Part shown: positions 7,570 through 20,574 of the stretch, one piece after another
Position numbering within the stretch: position 1 is the first letter of the stretch
How the letters are laid out: each line of letters opens with the position of its first letter
NCBI RefSeq assembly: GCF_021462825.1
Contig: NZ_JAKEEB010000011.1
Span: 124,001 to 188,000 of the forward strand
Direction of reading: 5' to 3'
Origin: Streptomyces glomeratus
GTDB lineage: Bacteria; Actinomycetota; Actinomycetes; Streptomycetales; Streptomycetaceae
Length of the DNA stretch: 64,000 nucleotides
Program-made: the position numbers and the translations under genes
The notes under the pieces: model-generated
Databases searched by the model: none
Told to the model about the DNA's origin: nothing
Seen by the model: the letters and a program-made list of their open reading frames with translations, nothing else

Positions 7570-8678
7570 CACCGCTCCCCAGTGGAGGCGCGGGCGCAGG
7601 AGGAGCCGGCCGCTTCCGTGGGGAGGACGGGGAGCAGGGGCAGGACCGGAGTGCCTTCGGGGCGCTCCATCCGGTCCCACCGCAGGTCGTAGTCGACGTA
7701 GTGGAAGCCCTGCCAGGCGTCGTTGGTGTTGCGGTCGAGCATGGCCTGGAAGAGGTGGGCGAAGGCGTCGCCGAGTGTGCCGTCGGCGAGGTGAGGCTTC
7801 AGGGAGATGTCGCGGTTGTGCAGGATGCAGGGTCGCGCCACTCCGGTGGGCGTGATCTTGATTCGGTTGGCGTCGGAGCATGTGGCGCAGCTGGAGTTGG
7901 AAATGAAGCCGATCGACCCTGCCCAGCCGTCGGGACGGAGGTACTGCCCGGGGCTGCGGACGCCCAGCTGGTCCCGGGGGACTTCGCCGGCGTTGGCGAA
8001 CCACTCGTGGAGGCGGTCGCGGACATCTGCCTCGGTGATGAATTCGGTGTCGAACAGCGCCTGGGCGGGACCGATGTTCTGGAGTTCGATCAGGCGGACG
8101 GCGACGGGCAGGTCGCGGGCGAGTTCGGCCACGGCGAAGGCGTCGTCCAGGTAGGTGCGCTGAAGAACGCAGTTGATCTTCACTCGCAGGCCGAGGGAGA
8201 GGGCGGTGTCGAGGGTGCTCCGGGTGGTGCGCGGGTCGCCGCCGCCCATGATCGCGGCGGACCGCGCCGGGTCGAGGCTGTGGAGGCTGAGGTTGAGGTA
8301 GGTCAGGCCGGCTTGGTGGAGCTGTTCGGCGCTCAGCCCACGGCGCAGGTTGCCGTGGCTGGTCATGCCGATCGCGGCATCGGGCCCGAGGCCGTCGGCG
8401 AGGCCCGCGATGACGTCGAGGATGTCGGCTCGGAGGGTCGGTTCACCGCCGGAGCAGTGTGCCTTCCTGATCTTCCAGGCCCTGGCCTCGGTAGCGATGG
8501 CCGCGTAGTCGGAGACGGTCAGGGGCCGGTCCTTGTGCCCGTAGTCCGGCATGCACCGGGGCTTGCAGAACACGCAGTCCAGGTTGCACAGCGAGTTCAG
8601 GGTGAAGGCCAGGTAGGGGTGGTTGCGGCCTGCGGCGGCGAAGGCGGCGGCCAGGGCGTCGTGGTCTGCGGTGGGCAT
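7569..8678 (-). CDS. MoaA-like radical SAM enzyme with second Fe-S cluster motif, 369 aa
   Basis: The N-terminal LCNLDCVFC motif (Cys at residues 31, 35, 38) binds the radical SAM cluster and SGGEPTLR (about 77) binds SAM. The C-terminal part has CATCSDANRIKITPTGVARP followed by another Cys, the pattern of the second cluster in MoaA, the GTP 3',8-cyclase of molybdopterin synthesis. Length also fits MoaA, but the terminal GG tail of MoaA is absent (it ends in an extended hydrophilic tail), and no other moa genes are nearby. A MoaA paralogue acting on a nucleotide or other substrate of this pathway is therefore likelier than the cofactor enzyme. It begins 3 bp downstream of the dehydrogenase-like gene stop. 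Confidence 0.85.
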   Translation of the reverse strand: MPTADHDALAAAFAAAGRNHPYLAFTLNSLCNLDCVFCKPRCMPDYGHKDRPLTVSDYAAIATEARAWKIRKAHCSGGEPTLRADILDVIAGLADGLGPDAAIGMTSHGNLRRGLSAEQLHQAGLTYLNLSLHSLDPARSAAIMGGGDPRTTRSTLDTALSLGLRVKINCVLQRTYLDDAFAVAELARDLPVAVRLIELQNIGPAQALFDTEFITEADVRDRLHEWFANAGEVPRDQLGVRSPGQYLRPDGWAGSIGFISNSSCATCSDANRIKITPTGVARPCILHNRDISLKPHLADGTLGDAFAHLFQAMLDRNTNDAWQGFHYVDYDLRWDRMERPEGTPVLPLLPVLPTEAAGSSCARASTGER

Positions 8679-11708: not shown

Positions 11709-13205
11709 ATGGGGCTCGCGAAGTGGTGGACGAACCACTGGAGCGAAGGGTGGTCGCACGTGGCACCGCAGACAGGCGAGCCCAACGTCGTACTGGCGGG
11801 GTGCCTCGACGAACTCGGGTGGAGCCCGAAGGCGCTCGCTCGCAAGCTCAACCGGGTCTTCGGCGCGGGGACGGTGGCCGAGTCGGCGCCGTACCACTGG
11901 CGGGACGCCGGCTCGCTGCCGCGCTCGCCGTTGCCGATGATGGCCGCCTACGTGCTCTCCCAGGAGCTGGGTAGGAATGTCTCGGTGGCCGAACTGTGGC
12001 AGGGCCGTGTGGGCGACTCGTCAGCCCTGGTCCCCGCAGACACGGATCTCGCGCGGCCTTGGACCGCGCAGGGCATGGAGGCGATCGTGGAGGACTGGGT
12101 GATGGGAGGGCTTGTCGACCGTCGCCGGTTCCTCGCGATCTCGGGCGCGGGACTCCTCGCGATCGTCGCCCAGTACCTCGACGGCACCGCGGGACGCGGT
12201 CAGTACACGCCTCGAATGACGTCGTCGTCCGGCACCGATCCGCTCGTGGACCAAGTGGAGCAGCATCTCCCCATGCTCCAGTTGCTCGATGACGAGCACG
12301 GAGGGGCACGTCATCTGCCTTACGTGGGAGCCCAGTTCCGGGCTGTCGGGCTGCTGATTCGCGAAGGCGGCCATCCTCCGGCTGTCGCAAGCCGTCTGAT
12401 CCGCGCGCTCGCGGAGATCGGTCAGCTGGCCGGCTGGATGGCCTTCGACGCGGCCGACCACGGACTGGCGCAGCGCTACTTCGTCACGGCGCTTCGGGCC
12501 GCCCATCAGGTCAATGATCTTCCCCTGTGTGCCCACATCCTGGGCGACCTGTCCTTCCAAGCGGCGAGTCGAGGACACCCCGCAGACGCCATCGCCCTCG
12601 GTGAGGCCGCCCGCCGTGCGAGCGACGCCGCCCCGCTGGCCGTCCGGGCGTCCGTCCTGTCCCGGCTCGCCTACGCGTACGCCGTCGCCGGCCGTGACAA
12701 CGACTTCGCCCACACTCGTGGCGCTGCCCGCGAACTGATCGCAAACCGGGACGGCCGCCAAGAAGAGCCCCGCTGGATGTACTTCCTCACCGACAACCAC
12801 CTGGACTGCCAGGCTGGTTACGGCCTCATCCAGATGGGTCGTGCACAGCAGAAGGCGGAGAGCGGAAAGAAGAGCCGTCGCTTCCTCGCCCAGGGGACCG
12901 AGATGCTCAGGTCCGGGGCGTACGACGTCCCGCGCGGCGACCCAAGCCAGCGCCGAGCCATGTTCGAGGGAGCCTGGCTGGCCCTGGGACACAGCGCGCA
13001 CGGAGACCTGGAGGCAGCCTGCGAGATCGGCCAGATCGCCGCCGACCGCCTCGATGTCGTCCGCTCGCCTCGCAGCGCGGAGCTGCTCCACCAACTTGCC
13101 GCCGACCTCCGTCGCCGACAGCGCAACCCTCACGTGCGCGGCTTCCTGCCAGCCCTGGAGAACGTCCTCGCCCAACACGCCCCATCGACGCAACCCGGCC
13201 GTTAG
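11709..13205 (+). CDS. NsdA-like TPR transcriptional regulator, 498 aa
   Basis: Cytoplasmic regulator of the Streptomyces NsdA-like type. The N-terminal region (residues 28-100, VLAGCLDELGWSPKALARKL through VSVAELW) resembles a helix-turn-helix/XRE-like domain. An unusual RRRFLAISGAGLLAIVAQ stretch at about 138-155 looks like a twin-arginine motif but lies far from the N-terminus, as in other members. The rest is alpha-helical and TPR-like. NsdA of S. coelicolor is a negative regulator of antibiotic production and sporulation; assignment here is by architecture. The ATG at 11709 follows a GGGGCGTCACC leader. The gene starts 92 bp from the divergent HATPase gene and is 10 bp upstream of the FAD oxidoreductase gene, probably co-transcribed with it. 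Confidence 0.7.
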   Translation: MGLAKWWTNHWSEGWSHVAPQTGEPNVVLAGCLDELGWSPKALARKLNRVFGAGTVAESAPYHWRDAGSLPRSPLPMMAAYVLSQELGRNVSVAELWQGRVGDSSALVPADTDLARPWTAQGMEAIVEDWVMGGLVDRRRFLAISGAGLLAIVAQYLDGTAGRGQYTPRMTSSSGTDPLVDQVEQHLPMLQLLDDEHGGARHLPYVGAQFRAVGLLIREGGHPPAVASRLIRALAEIGQLAGWMAFDAADHGLAQRYFVTALRAAHQVNDLPLCAHILGDLSFQAASRGHPADAIALGEAARRASDAAPLAVRASVLSRLAYAYAVAGRDNDFAHTRGAARELIANRDGRQEEPRWMYFLTDNHLDCQAGYGLIQMGRAQQKAESGKKSRRFLAQGTEMLRSGAYDVPRGDPSQRRAMFEGAWLALGHSAHGDLEAACEIGQIAADRLDVVRSPRSAELLHQLAADLRRRQRNPHVRGFLPALENVLAQHAPSTQPGR

Positions 13206-13215
13206 GGTCAGGTTC

Positions 13216-14169
13216 ATGACCGCAGGGGAGCGCGTTGTCGTTGTCGGGGCTGGGGTGGCTGGACTCACCACGGCCGTCGTTCTCGCCGAGGCCGGGGCTT
13301 CGGTGCACGTGATCACCGAGCAGGTGCCGGGGGTCACTTCGCTGGCGGCCGGGGCGATGTGGGGGCCTTACCTGGTCGAGCCGAAGGACAAGGTCGACCA
13401 GTGGGGACAACGGTCCTTGGAAATCTTCCGGGAGCTGGCCCAGGACCCGGCGACGGGCGTCCGGCTCACCAGTGGCATCGAGGCATCCCGCACGGCCGAA
13501 GCCGCGCCAGACTGGGCCACCACTTTGCCGGGTTTCCGGCCGTGCGAGCGGGCCGAACTTCCGGCCGGGTTCACGGCGGGCTATCGGTTCACCGTGCCAC
13601 TGATCGACATGCCCACATACCTTGACTACCTCCTGCGCCGGCTCCGCGATGCCGGAGGTGTGTTCGAGCGGCGACGGCTGGCCTCGTTCACGGACGCCGG
13701 TCAGGCTTCCGTGATCGTCAACTGTTCGGGCCTCGGTGCGCGCGACCTTGTGCCGGATCCTGACCTCCGGCCCATCCGCGGCCAGCACGTCGTCGTCACC
13801 AACCCCGGGCTGACCGAGTTCTTCTCCGAGGACACCGGCCTCTCCCCGGACCTCCTGTGCTTCTATCCCCACGGCGACACCGTCGTCCTGGGGGGCACAG
13901 CGATCGACGGCGAAGGCGATCTGGCCTCCGACGACAAGGCTGCGGTCGGTATCCTCGCCCGCTGTGCCGAGGTCGAGCCCCGCCTCGCCCGGGCCCGTGT
14001 CCTGGAGCACCGGATCGGCGCTCGACCGACCCGCGCCACGGTCCGTGTGGAGGAAGAGGTGGGGGAGGACGGCACCGTGGTCGTGCACAACTACGGGCAC
14101 GGAGGTGCTGGCGTCACGCTGTCGTGGGGGTGCGCCGAGGAGGCTCGGGCGTTGCTCTCTGTTAAGTGA
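13216..14169 (+). CDS. D-amino-acid-oxidase-type FAD oxidoreductase, 317 aa
   Basis: FAD-dependent oxidase of the DAO family. The dinucleotide-binding VVVVGAGVAGLTTAVVLAEA sits at residues 8-27, and the C-terminal family signature HNYGHGGAGVTLSWGCA is at about 290-306. Known members oxidise D-amino acids or glycine to imino acids with production of hydrogen peroxide. Length is normal. The ATG at 13216 lies 10 bp after the regulator gene. A closely related copy occurs at 17462-18411 but is frameshifted, so this one is the intact member of a duplication. Substrate cannot be told from sequence. Confidence 0.9.
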   Translation: MTAGERVVVVGAGVAGLTTAVVLAEAGASVHVITEQVPGVTSLAAGAMWGPYLVEPKDKVDQWGQRSLEIFRELAQDPATGVRLTSGIEASRTAEAAPDWATTLPGFRPCERAELPAGFTAGYRFTVPLIDMPTYLDYLLRRLRDAGGVFERRRLASFTDAGQASVIVNCSGLGARDLVPDPDLRPIRGQHVVVTNPGLTEFFSEDTGLSPDLLCFYPHGDTVVLGGTAIDGEGDLASDDKAAVGILARCAEVEPRLARARVLEHRIGARPTRATVRVEEEVGEDGTVVVHNYGHGGAGVTLSWGCAEEARALLSVK

Positions 14170-14217: not shown

Positions 14218-14920
14218 TCAGGGCGCCCCGACACGCTTGTAGCCGAACCACAACCGGCCACCGGTCTGCCCGAGCACCTCGTCCGCGACGGCCACGAGGG
14301 TCTCGACTCTCCCGTCCAGTACCTCCTGTACGCCGTGGTGGAGGCGTGCGCTGAGCCCTGGCGCGGTCGTCTCAAGAAGGCGTGCCAGCCACTTCCCACC
14401 GCCACCCCACGACCCGCCTACGGCCAGTGCCAGCTCACCGGTGCGTCGGACCAGCTCGGTCGCGATGAACAGACGCTCGCTCTGGTCGTCACTTCCCGCG
14501 AGGTCGTCCAGAAGGTCGATGATCGCGTAGCGGCGATCATCGATCTCTTCCGACGACAACGGTGGTGGTCCGGCGGCGGTCAGCTTCCGGGCCTGTGCGG
14601 CGAGGCGGGCTCCGAGTCCGTCGGTGTCGAAGAGCAGCAGCCCGTCGGCACACATCCACAGCAGCGGTGACCGGCGCTTGCGCAGCTACCGTTCGACATA
14701 TGCGTGCCACGTTGCCTCGGTGTGCACGAGCATCTCCACCGGCCAGCCGGCGTACTGGAGGCTCGCCCGGTACGGAGCTGGGGCCCCGTGGAGCAGCACC
14801 ACGATGTCGAGGTCCGACGTCGCCGTGCGGCGACCCGTCACGACGCTGCCGCCCAGGAACGCGGCGCGGGTCGGGGTGCTGTTCATCTACGACGGCGCGT
14901 GCGGCCTCGATCGCATCCAT
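14218..14920 (-). pseudogene. nucleotidyltransferase-domain gene inactivated by a frameshift and an amber stop
   Basis: Reading on the minus strand, an N-terminal start MDAIEAARAVVDEQHPD (ATG at 14920) is out of frame with the next segment RAAFLGGSVVTGRRTATSDLD; a one-base loss near 14875 explains it. The second segment carries the Pol-beta nucleotidyltransferase motif GGSVVTGRRTATSDLDIVV. It ends at YVER followed by TAG (14688-14686), after which the same frame continues LRKRRSPLLWMCADGLLLFD and runs to 14218. With both lesions repaired this would be one protein of about 233 residues. Two independent lesions argue for a real pseudogene rather than a sequencing error. Neighbours are also decayed. 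Confidence 0.8.
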
Positions 14921-17257: not shown

Positions 17258-17461
17258 ACGCGAGACCGTAGCAGCGCGATCGCGTCGAGAGGACGAGTTC
17301 CTGGGCCGCTTCGGACAGTGGAGCGGGACATGCCAACCGAACCGACTGCATGGTGGGATTCGCGGAAACCGGCGGCTCGTTGTCAAGCTCGGACACAGTC
17401 GATCAGGGCTTGGCGTAACCCATCCCGCGCTCTCGACTCACCCGGGAATAGGGTGAGGTTC

Positions 17462-18411
17462 GTGGCCGCAGGGGAGCGCGTTGTCGTTGTCGGGGCTGGG
17501 GTGGCTGGGCTCACCACGGGCGTCGTTCTCGCCGAGGCTGGGGCTTCGGTGTGCGTGATGGCCGAGCAGGTGCCCGGTGCCACGTCGCTGGCGGCCGGGG
17601 CGATGTGGGGGCCGTACTTGGTCGAGCCGATGGAAAAGGTCGAGCAGTGGGGACAACGGTCGCTGGAGGTCTTTCGGGAGCCGGCGGAGGAGCCGGCGAC
17701 GGGCGTCCGGCTCACCAGCGGGATCGAAGCGTCCCGCACGGCCGAGGGCGCGCCGGGCTGGGCCACGACTTTGCCGGGTTTCCGGCTGTGCGAGCCCGCC
17801 GAACTCCCGGCCGGGTTCGCGGCGGGCTACCGATTTACTGTGCCGCTGATCGACATGCCCACCTATCTGGATTACCTCTGTGCCGGCTACGCGATGCCGG
17901 GGGAGCGATCGAGCGGCGTCGGCTGGCCTCGCTCGCGGATGCCGGTCCGGCTTCGTTGATCGTCAACTGTTCTGTCCTCGGTGCACGCGACCTGGTGCCG
18001 GATCCTGAACTTCGGCCCGTCCGCGGCCAGCACGTCGTCGTCACCAATCCGGGGCTGACCGAGTTCTTCTCCGAGGAGACCGGCCTTTCGCCGGACCTGC
18101 TGTGCTTCTATCCTCACGGCGACACCGTCGTGCTGGGCGGCACAGCGATCGACGGTGAGGGCAACCTGGCCCCCGACGACAAGGCGGCGGCCGATATCCT
18201 CGTCCGCTGGGCAGAGGTCGAACCCCGTCTGGCCCAGGCTCGCCTGCTGGAACACCGGATCGGCGCTCGACCGACCCGTGCCACGGTCCGTGTCGAGGAG
18301 GACCTGTGGGAGGACGGCACTCTGGTCGTGCACAACTACGGGCACGGTGGCGCCGGCGTCACGCTGTCGTGGGGATGCGCCGAGGAAACTCGGGACCTGC
18401 TTTCAGCCTAA
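17462..18411 (+). pseudogene. frameshifted duplicate of the DAO-type FAD oxidoreductase
   Basis: Near copy of the gene at 13216. Both begin after a related leader (tagggt-aggttc), here with GTG instead of ATG, and both encode VVVVGAGVAGLTT and HNYGHGGAGVTLSWGCA. Aligning the copies at 17875-17885 shows one C missing: the intact copy reads YLLRRLRDAGG where this one reads YLCAGYAMPG and stops at 17959. Restoring the base gives LLCRLRDAGGAIERRRLASL and an open frame to 18411 (316 residues). The remainder shows no other lesion, so inactivation looks recent. Confidence 0.88.
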
Positions 18412-18535
18412 TGACCTGAGACTCCTGAGCGGGTGGTTGCGGGCCGCGCGCAGGCCGCACCACCCAATGGAAGGTGGGGCACTACGTTCTGTCCCAGCAA
18501 CGTGGTGGTACACAGGCACCGTCGGTAGGTCCAAC

Positions 18536-18886
18536 TGCGCAAGCGGCCCCGGTCGGTTGCGAAGCCAGGTGCGCATCGCCCGCCCAAGGATGCGCAATCA
18601 CCACGTGCCCGTCGGGACGCCGGGTGCGCAGAGGCGTGGTGGGCCCTTTGGTCGGGGCAGACCTGGTCGGGCCGACCACGGCAGGTAGGAGCACGGCTGC
18701 GCAGGCTCCGATTCGCCCGGGTGCACAGACTGCGCAACTGCTGCGCGCTCAGTGCGCAGTTCCTTGCGCAAGGCTGCGGTCGGAGTTGTGGTTGGGTCCA
18801 CGGTCGGGGGTGTGGTCGGGCCTGTGGTCGGAAATCTCTGCGCAGCCGTCGCACGGAGACGGTGGGCGCTGCGCATCGGCTGCGCA
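18536..18886. repeat. array of eleven TGCGCA palindromes in near-helical phase
   Basis: TGCGCA occurs at 18536, 18570, 18591, 18625, 18698, 18731, 18753, 18765, 18839, 18870 and 18881. Intervals are 34, 21, 34, 73, 33, 22, 12, 74, 31 and 11 bp, all within 2.5 bp of multiples of 10.5. The sites form groups of 4, 4 and 3 separated by 73-74 bp gaps. Those gaps carry GGTCGG repeats, including three at 12 bp steps (18802, 18814, 18826). One site extends to a 12 bp perfect palindrome (18762-18773). Open frames through the array have low-complexity Pro/Thr/Arg products and I do not treat them as genes. The array ends 8 bp before the stop codon of the replication-relaxation gene. It could be an iteron-type origin, a partition site or a multi-operator. 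Confidence 0.8.
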
Positions 18887-18893
18887 GGCCGGT

Positions 18894-19793
18894 CTACACG
18901 TCCTGGGTCTGGCTCCAGACCACTGTGCGGTCGGGGTCCCGTATGGGGCGCCACACTGGCTCGGACGGGCCGTTGCTGCGCAGGTCGACAAGGGATGCGG
19001 CCACCACGGGGACAGCGTGCAGGAAGCCGGCCACTGCCGGGTCGACGGCGGCCGCGTGCAGGGCGCGGATGCGGATGGTGATGCCGGCGGGGCCGATGCC
19101 GTCAAGGACGAACAAGACGCGGGGGAAGAGCGGGTAGCGCCTTCGCCATTCCTCCTGCACCGGTTCCTGCCCGATGGTCGGCCGGTGGCGACCCGGGGCG
19201 GCGGGCACGTAGTGGTAGAGGCGGGCGTAGGCGGTGAGCTTTGCGGCCAGGCGTTCTGGGCCCATGGTGGCCCGGTCGACCTCGACGAACGCCCGCAGCA
19301 TCGACCCCTCGCCGTCCGCGGGTCCGCGCCGGTAGTACATCAGCGCGTCGGGGATGACGGCCTCACCACCCCCGACGGGGTGGTAGACCTCGGGCAGCCA
19401 GTCCAGCGGCCGGCACAACTCGCCGAGGCGGCGCGCGTCTTCGAGGAAGAGGAGCGCGGTCTCGGTCACCGTCAGAGTGTGTCCGACCCGCAGTCGCGCG
19501 GCAGTGGGATCGGACACCGTCTTCGGTGGCCGCCGCCCGCGCAACTCCGGCCACTCCGAGGCGATCTGCACGCCGTAGGAGGTGGGAAACCACACGCGCA
19601 GCCGTCCGGCCTGGGGCAGGGTGATGCGGTCGATGAGTCCCTCATCGCGCATTTTGGCCAGCCGCCGCCGGGTCTGCTCGATGCGCACCTCGGGGGCGAT
19701 CACCCGGTGCATCTGTTCGGTGGTGGCCATCCGGTACTGCGTCAGCACCGCCAGCGCCAGCCGGTCCCCACCCCCCGCGTCCACGTCGGTCAT
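18894..19793 (-). CDS. replication-relaxation family protein, 299 aa
   Basis: Member of the actinobacterial replication-relaxation family found on plasmids and integrative conjugative elements. The N-terminus (LALAVLTQYRMATTEQMHRV through RRRLAKMRDEGLIDRI, residues 11-60) is a winged-helix-like DNA-binding domain. The middle (VIPDALMYYRRG, AFVEVDRATMGPERLAAKL, about 148-185) resembles a nuclease-like fold with conserved D-x-E-x-D. Length is typical. Its exact biochemical role is not established. The ATG at 19793 is supported by MTDVDAGGGDRLALAVL. The TGCGCA array lies directly downstream and an integrase remnant 0.8 kb upstream, so this is probably the surviving gene of a decayed element. Confidence 0.82.
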   Translation of the reverse strand: MTDVDAGGGDRLALAVLTQYRMATTEQMHRVIAPEVRIEQTRRRLAKMRDEGLIDRITLPQAGRLRVWFPTSYGVQIASEWPELRGRRPPKTVSDPTAARLRVGHTLTVTETALLFLEDARRLGELCRPLDWLPEVYHPVGGGEAVIPDALMYYRRGPADGEGSMLRAFVEVDRATMGPERLAAKLTAYARLYHYVPAAPGRHRPTIGQEPVQEEWRRRYPLFPRVLFVLDGIGPAGITIRIRALHAAAVDPAVAGFLHAVPVVAASLVDLRSNGPSEPVWRPIRDPDRTVVWSQTQDV

Positions 19794-20574
19794 CGTCGGC
19801 CCGCCCCTCTCTTACGGGCGGCGCCGTCCCGCCCGGCGCCGCGTATACCGGCTACAGCAGCAGGCGACCCCGACCGGACCACCGACCACGAAGGCCCGAC
19901 CACGGTCACGGGGCGACAACACCGCCCCCGACCGTGCCGGCATCCCCGCCGACATCTCCTCCGACAACTGACCGTGCCCTGCCACACCCTGGACGGCGTA
20001 GCCGCAGGTCACCATGCCTTGTCGGCCCTGGCGCGGAGCACGACATCCCCCTATGCGCCTCTCACAGCCGACCCCAAAACAGAAAGAGAAGGGTTGGGAC
20101 GGGCTGGGGGCCGGCGATCGGCGCGGCGGGGGATCGGGGGCGGCCTGGAGCTCTTGTTGCGCGTCGGCCGGGGCCTCCGCGCTCAACGCCGAGCAGGCCG
20201 GCACAAGGGCGGACTGGCGGGCGGGGCGCAGCTGCACCGCGCCTGGTTACACGGCCCACAACACGGGCACGACGGATACCTTCGATGGGACGTCGACTCC
20301 GGTCGGCTGGGCTCTGAGAACGCGGGTCTAGGCACATGGGAGTTCGACGCCTCGCAGCTGGAGGCGCCCGGATAGAGCCAGGGCAACCACACCGGAGGTA
20401 GCGGCTGACTGGGTTTTCGGTGGCGAGTCTCTGCCATTCTCCGCTGTGCCCTGTGGGTACCCGTCCCATCGGGCATGTGCTTGTTTGCGGGCTTGTCGTG
20501 GTGGTCTTGGACGCCTTGCCTGTTGATGTCAACTTGTGGGACGACTGGGTCACCGCTCGAAAGGCTGCGGGCGT
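19794..20574. other. stretch without a convincing gene
   Basis: Several ORFs cross this 0.8 kb on both strands, but none has consistent coding bias or a recognisable motif. An A-rich patch (near 20075-20095) may be a promoter or a terminator tail. It is likely degraded sequence of the former integrative element. Confidence 0.5.

Follow-up and report, generated by a model that had tools for sequence, protein, structure and literature searches.

A phased TGCGCA array beside a MOBC-type relaxase gene of Streptomyces as a candidate relaxosome-binding part of an origin of transfer

The stretch with eleven TGCGCA palindromes that lies 3′ of a Replic_Relax gene in Streptomyces glomeratus is, on balance, probably the relaxosome-binding part of an origin of transfer (oriT), carried in a stand-alone relaxase cassette without a T4SS. 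It was found in a window of 64,000 nucleotides, the whole stretch of DNA that was analysed, to which all coordinates of the cassette refer. In the model proposed here, the MOBC-type relaxase gene, the array and a conserved 5′ box region would together form a relaxase-plus-sites cassette of about 1.7 kb in the Streptomyces chromosome. The relaxase or a partner protein would occupy rows of sites along a single face of the helix and so wrap the DNA, a nick would be made in or near the cassette region, and one strand would be handed to a T4SS supplied in trans, the element on contig C21 being one possible source within the genome. Because the window cassette has no T4SS, it fits either a module that is mobilised in trans or a relic, and today it may still be mobilizable or be kept only as such a relic. 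The original prediction of a cooperative protein-binding array is well supported by the non-coding look of the stretch, by its recurrence beside related genes and by helical spacing in unrelated copies. Among the functions that had been offered for it, a transfer locus fits best, given the MOBC-type relaxase and the presence of the same motifs upstream of T4SS operons, and replication iterons fit less well. The features of the region are as follows.

17318 to 18411, forward strand: frameshifted FAD-dependent oxidoreductase gene, which bounds the array stretch on the left and converges with the relaxase gene.
18536 to 18886, no strand assigned: eleven TGCGCA palindromes with a helical spacing of about 10.8 bp, from motif scan, coherence and relatives.
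18551 to 18831, forward strand: seven GGTCGG repeats, three of them at 12-bp steps from 18802, also present in relatives and upstream of tcpC.
18894 to 19793, reverse strand: MOBC-type relaxase gene (PF13814, Replic_Relax; 299 aa), with a winged helix and a predicted PD-(D/E)XK-like nuclease domain.
19794 to 20232, reverse strand: non-coding 5′ region of the relaxase cassette, conserved in an alignment of 17 loci and delimited by blastn edges.
19863 to 19910, reverse strand: box CGTGACC..TGGTCGGG..TTC.TGGTCGG..., identical at 44 of 48 positions to DNA that lies upstream of tcpC in L130, a conjugative plasmid.

All eleven palindromes were found within the 351 bp in which they had been described, at positions 18536, 18570, 18591, 18625, 18698, 18731, 18753, 18765, 18839, 18870 and 18881, and the ten intervals between them (34, 21, 34, 73, 33, 22, 12, 74, 31 and 11 bp) are exactly those claimed. 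The expectation of about 0.1 site per 351 bp also agrees with the remainder of the window, which holds 21 sites (0.12 per 351 bp), and the density in the array is about 95 times that of this remainder. An order-1 Markov model of positions 18413–18893 gave a mean of 0.41 sites and a maximum of 4 in 5000 draws. The window as a whole shows no clear enrichment, with 32 sites against a mean of 25 in shuffled sequences, of which 10 in 100 had at least 32.

The spacing of the sites had been described as a phasing on 10.5 bp that would place every site on the same face of the helix. Single intervals do lie near whole turns of that length, but the excesses accumulate along the array, and the coherence of all sites at 10.5 bp is low (R = 0.20). 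It rises to R = 0.86 for all 11 sites at 10.76 bp, a value equalled at any period of 10–11 bp by 0.06% of random placements. An exact 10.5-bp phasing of the entire array was therefore dropped in favour of a period of about 10.8 bp, for which the notion of a common face holds. A periodicity near 11 bp of neighbouring intervals of up to 80 bp was also detected in other arrays, with a best period of 11.5 bp for the 75 intervals of 12 T4SS-type arrays and of 10.9 bp for the 47 intervals of 6 solo lineages, and none of 2000 random placements was as periodic for either set, in which the arrays share ancestry and so are not fully independent. The signal is weaker in the T4SS set than in the solo set (mean cosine 0.36 vs 0.57), and an earlier, smaller T4SS set had given a period of 10.9 bp (P 0.0036). 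This test left out five close relatives of the window (L005–L007, L044 and L045), L131, L135 and intervals above 80 bp, and it counted L138, which has the box and no recognised gene, among the T4SS arrays. The palindromes themselves tend to be conserved: between the window and L044, 62 of 66 bases in TGCGCA sites are conserved as compared with 275 of 343 in the rest (48 of 54 and 289 of 357 in the reverse direction), and of 12 directed comparisons among L004–L007, 10 show the site bases to be more conserved than the remaining bases and 2 show the opposite.

The array stretch looks non-coding. Five open reading frames across it matched no family above the cut-off, and between the window array and its copy in genome G117 the substitutions are even across codon positions (20/19/19) and accompanied by indels of 1, 3, 3, 3, 4, 9 and 21 bp, whereas the relaxase gene shows a coding pattern (19, 9, 9) in the same comparison. 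The refutation foreseen at the outset, that the codons of a coding sequence create the motif, was rejected on the absence of any family over the cut-off together with the even substitutions. A structured RNA was also rejected as a candidate, with no Rfam match up to E 1. In addition, blastn found no DNA similarity between the 482-bp stretch and known plasmids, and no ParA or ParB family was found among the 10 window ORFs scanned. The GGTCGG repeats at 18551, 18650, 18665, 18778, 18802, 18814 and 18826 are, when read on the other strand, the CCGACC(A) repeats seen in relatives. They occupy both long gaps between the palindromes, with three at 12-bp steps in the second gap, in agreement with the earlier description.

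The gene that adjoins the array was correctly taken for a replication-relaxation gene, because its product matches PF13814 with 87.1 bits as compared with the Pfam cut-off of 25.3. In the accessible part of the article by Coluzzi et al. (2017; PMC5357655), this family, named Replic_Relax in Pfam, is given as the MobC relaxase. A review in a FEMS journal from 2025 (PMC12857230) describes, in its accessible part, TraX of pAD1, the prototype of the MOBC relaxases, as having a winged HTH and a restriction-endonuclease-type active site, and as binding five direct repeats located 70–120 bp from nic. Candidate catalytic residues of the PD-(D/E)XK type are present in the window relaxase: D149, E171, D173 and K185 are at least 90% conserved among 41 sequences, and the first three align to the D and E-x-E of the pAM373 relaxase (probability 65%, E 6e-5). 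The structure model is only fair (pLDDT 62.9), and its order of helices and strands is compatible with a winged helix plus a restriction-endonuclease-like fold. Weak fold matches were obtained to PaqCI (Z 7.6, rmsd 4.3, 141 residues aligned) and to the nicking enzyme Nt.BspD6I (Z 7.0, rmsd 4.8, 149 aligned), both tied with winged-helix rows, and the best Foldseek match of the model in the PDB was a winged-helix protein (E 0.018). A search of PDB sequences with the window relaxase returned no match. The dN/dS values of 0.16–0.34 across six pairs of solo relatives suggest that selection maintains the relaxase protein.

Arrays bound by MOBC relaxases are already known in principle from pAD1, for which the accessible part of the same review reports TraX at short direct repeats (PMC12857230). 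The relaxase of pAM373, likewise from Enterococcus faecalis, also falls into PF13814 (27.1 bits) and has the aligned D and E-x-E-or-D residues. In this plasmid, which is typed MOBC, the stretch that separates the relaxase gene from the coupling-protein gene holds five 12-bp-step repeats, identified here by a sequence scan, and an inverted repeat of 25 bp. The 12-bp-stepped GGTCGG/CCGACCA repeats are the nearest match in the window to repeats of the TraX-binding type. These repeats and the box would most likely be bound by the relaxase, and the TGCGCA sites by the relaxase or by a relaxosome partner. The window differs from the pAD1/pAM373 oriT in the sequence of its repeats, in its second, palindromic TGCGCA array, in its high GC content, and in having no inverted repeat longer than 16 bp within 18300–19100 and no recognised coupling protein beside the gene. 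The perfect 25-bp inverted repeat of pAM373 (L170, 14422–14625) contains TGACCA, whose likeness to the GACCA in the Streptomyces repeats may be fortuitous. CloDF13 was discarded as a second MOBC yardstick because its annotation lists no Replic_Relax gene. The clt/TRS sites of TraB-type Streptomyces transfer and the KOPS of FtsK are oriented repeats that are read by an FtsK-like translocase. They are similar to the present array in being short repeated motifs in a Streptomyces transfer locus, but the partner gene in the window belongs to a relaxase family and the main motif is palindromic.

Relatives of the relaxase gene were found at 39 loci in sequence records, with matches in 38 of 150 Streptomyces genomes, that of the window included. 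Loci are called solo here when the DNA examined around the gene, mostly up to 5 kb a side and 1.5 kb at loci taken from the genome search, has no tcpC or VirB4 match. When equal flanks of 450 bp were compared at 29 solo loci, again with the window included, 8–12 TGCGCA were present 3′ of the gene at 11, 4 at a single locus and 0–2 at the other 17. The 5′ flank never contains more than one TGCGCA at any of the 29 loci, and CGACCA, on either strand, occurs there at least twice at 27 of them. The conservation of the array beside homologous genes, which the original prediction had named as a check, is therefore real in a subset only, and the 18 of 29 loci with at most 4 sites 3′ of the gene count against the oriT reading. 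In the relaxase tree, from which two frameshifted rows (L032 and L048) were left out, the window's own group of six rows has the array throughout, and a clade of eight rows (support 99/97), which includes SAP1 and other plasmid rows, has it in none. In this clade the winged helix is nearly unchanged (0.82 identity), which indicates that the array is not needed by every member and that the relaxase may not be the protein that binds TGCGCA. In genome G040 the relaxase gene has an internal stop, yet the array persists; this too counts against the oriT reading, as do the weakness of the fold matches to nucleases and the failure to locate a nic site.

The oriT reading draws support from the presence of the repeats beside both relaxase genes and tra operons, in solo and T4SS loci. 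The 48-bp box of the window gene matches at 44 positions a stretch upstream of tcpC in L135 as well as in L130, and L131 and L118 share longer but weaker stretches with the 5′ region of the gene. With one mismatch allowed, the 28-bp core of the box was found at 16 places in 12 of the 150 genomes. All 12 belong to the 38 that have a relative of the relaxase gene, a coincidence with a chance of 1.6e-8 if the two were independent, an assumption that fails because of linked inheritance; since box and gene are inherited together, their co-occurrence alone is no proof of binding. Eight of the 16 places lie by a Replic_Relax gene or fragment, seven by tcpC and one by neither. The tcpC-type boxes are preceded by 8, 5, 9, 7 and 9 TGCGCA, except that one with a broken tcpC has none and another is truncated by the end of its contig; 6 are found at the place without either gene.

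A second Replic_Relax gene of the same genome, on contig C21, belongs to such an element: seven TGCGCA lie between an HTH_36 gene and tcpC, and beyond tcpC come a TraC/VirB4-like gene and, at a greater distance, an ATPase gene overlapping with Replic_Relax. This ATPase has a Walker A motif and matches one PHROG of unknown function but nothing in Pfam, NCBIfam or the PDB sequences, so that the label of coupling protein rests on the position of its gene. The order tcpC, VirB4-like ATPase, peptidase, ATP-binding or hypothetical protein and replication-relaxation protein is found in the annotated plasmids L130, L131, L132 and L134, and in L135 the Replic_Relax gene is located about 9 kb away on the other side of tcpC. 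Upstream of tcpC these loci have 9 (L130), 8 (L131), 4 (L132), 8 (L134) and 8 (L135) TGCGCA. The Kitasatospora locus L133 (32347–33249) has CATCAAGG repeats in their place, a result that rests on the annotated tcpC, the sequence match to tcpC lying elsewhere. Streptomyces tra regions of this kind (TcpC, VirB4-like protein, C40 peptidase, ATP-binding protein and Replic_Relax) thus carry the array, the repeats and the box upstream of tcpC, and CGACCA repeats are common to the solo and T4SS groups. In the window, by contrast, the sites flank a lone relaxase gene, with the box 5′ and the array 3′ and without an operon, and no match to tcpC, VirB4, T4CP, C40 or HTH_36 was found in the 64 kb, which weighs against the oriT reading. 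MOB-suite typing in PLSDB classes four of the six Replic_Relax plasmids L130–L135 as non-mobilizable.

Because the array of T4SS elements occupies the divergent promoter region between HTH_36 and tcpC, and because the box stands just upstream of tcpC and also of the solo gene, the sites could be operators that regulate the tra operon or the relaxase gene and are bound by the relaxase as an autoregulator or by another regulator, the solo copy being a displaced remnant. This explanation is unlikely, since the window array is located between the 3′ ends of two convergent genes, the frameshifted FAD-oxidoreductase gene and the PF13814 relaxase gene, where no promoter is expected, and since a 3′ array is maintained at 11 of the 29 solo loci. 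The HTH_36 protein beside the T4SS array, which matches PHROG replication-initiation families, raises another possibility, namely that the sites are the iterons of a vegetative origin used by this Rep-like protein. Iteron origins of the RepE and RctB type, as far as the accessible sources describe them, likewise have repeated sites by the gene of a DNA-binding protein, but the window array has no recognised initiator gene among the scanned ORFs and a high GC content (71% across the 351 bp, with 0.67–0.71 in the surrounding 2-kb steps). No HTH_36 match occurs in the window, by solo arrays within the loci examined or by the mobF-type arrays L172 and L173. Four of the 11 genomes searched, G117, G040, G151 and G154, have a solo array and no VirB4, and their HTH_36 matches are only partial and weak (24–35% identity, E 3e-12 at best). 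A role as iterons is accordingly very improbable. Phage-replication-initiator-like HTH_36 proteins divergent from the T4SS operon are encoded, for example, at 14575–16191 in L118 and 3759–5198 in L130.

The repeats upstream of tcpC appear to change with the relaxase. The T4SS set comprised six annotated plasmids and sixteen genome stretches (22 loci), with a tcpC match in 16 and none recognisable in 6. At least 4 TGCGCA occur within 900 bp upstream of tcpC in all eight elements whose relaxase is at least 63% identical to that of L130, in one of five at 49–54% identity and in none of three at 42% or less. Seven of the eight close elements have at least 7 CGACCA and six have the box core. Elements with distant relaxases have other repeats at this position, ACTCACCA in L155, L163 and L168 and GAGCTCGA in L159 and L166, so that the repeat sequence varies between relaxase clades. 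For the winged helix and the nuclease part, the mean identities of solo relaxases are 0.41/0.46 to the TGCGCA-type and 0.38/0.43 to the CTCACC-type T4SS relaxases, and those of the two T4SS types to each other are 0.41/0.57; the identity of the winged helix does not clearly follow the repeat motif. These differences between clades are a natural experiment on the recognition of DNA by MOBC relaxases, and an array that does serve as oriT would provide a sequence handle by which Replic_Relax elements can be found, tested and classified. TGCGCA also occurs inside tcpC genes, with spacings of 26, 28, 15, 48, 32 and 46 bp (L139, L142–L144, L149, L150 and L152); these clusters, which a plain motif scan would count as an array, were set aside as intragenic.

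A third context was met beside mobF (TrwC-type) relaxase genes, where the two largest other non-tandem arrays among the listed loci are situated (L093/L172 and L099/L173), and in L093/L172 the array is followed by another PF13814 gene (41.5 bits). Within 0.6–2.1 kb 3′ of mobF at 11 loci, at least 9 TGCGCA are present in L172, L173, L176 and L179 and 0–4 in the other seven, and CGACCA is nearly absent. A Replic_Relax gene follows mobF at seven of the 11 loci, by annotation or Pfam, and the array accompanies it in only three of those seven, which also counts against the oriT reading. In L173 the array stands by a decayed mobF, and no Replic_Relax gene was recognised. Judged from these sequences, TGCGCA arrays accompany Replic_Relax genes of three distant groups. 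MOBF (TrwC) and Replic_Relax genes with the array between them span 5360–11198 in L172 and 4046–8970 in L176.

The recurrence with three distant groups would also be expected if TGCGCA were a site for a nucleoid or partner protein of the host, recruited by Streptomyces mobile elements in an architectural, centromere-like or decoy role and located near relaxase genes by chance. The clade that has nearly the same winged helix and no array agrees with such a site, as do smaller arrays away from relaxases (L110 and L124). It is nevertheless quite unlikely, because the two largest non-tandem arrays among the listed loci were found without seeking relaxases and yet adjoin relaxase genes. Moreover, a relative of the relaxase gene is present in seven of the nine genomes with at least 7 three-site clusters as compared with 38 of 150 overall, a count in which some clusters are those inside tcpC.

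The borders of the cassette bear on how it may have reached its place. The outer edge of the 5′ region is the end of similarity to G117, whose protein is 94% identical, and in G117 the cassette (18067–20232 in the window) lies in an otherwise unrelated 20-kb context, where it is also joined to the 3′ part of an oxidoreductase gene. The order in T4SS elements is array, box and an operon ending in the relaxase gene, and that in the cassette is box, relaxase gene and array. The latter is a circular permutation of the former, as if a circle composed only of oriT and the relaxase gene had been cut at nic, between the box and the array. The unrelated context and the joined oxidoreductase piece resemble one-ended rolling-circle transposition, in which solo MOBC relaxase cassettes would be mobile units and the relaxase would move its own gene, a proposal that we regard as highly doubtful. 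The window itself has two copies of the FAD-dependent oxidoreductase gene (13171–14149 and 17419–18394) that are 87% identical, and the copy on the side of the array is the frameshifted one.

In the accessible open-licence literature, we found no palindromic, helically phased second array common to T4SS operons and lone Streptomyces relaxase cassettes, and no described oriT of a Streptomyces element that carries Replic_Relax. A survey of ICEs in actinobacteria is, in its accessible part, restricted to MOBF relaxases.

Solo Replic_Relax genes also occur towards the ends of plasmids. Among the first 16 plasmid matches listed, 12 are located 4–17 kb from the end of the record, and both plasmids examined among these 12, SAP1 and CP115301, are linear; they retain the box motif on the 5′ side and lack a TGCGCA array. 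Solo genes of the array-less clade near the ends of linear plasmids point inwards (L129, 36568–37470; L075, 10433–11329). Finally, and again as a point against the oriT reading, smaller TGCGCA arrays are found by genes other than relaxases, of the YceI, abhydrolase and DUF1330 families, with seven sites at 264–409 in L021, five at 1501–1599 in L110 and five at 7919–8020 in L124, and that in L021 is located about 4.6 kb from a frameshifted Replic_Relax gene.
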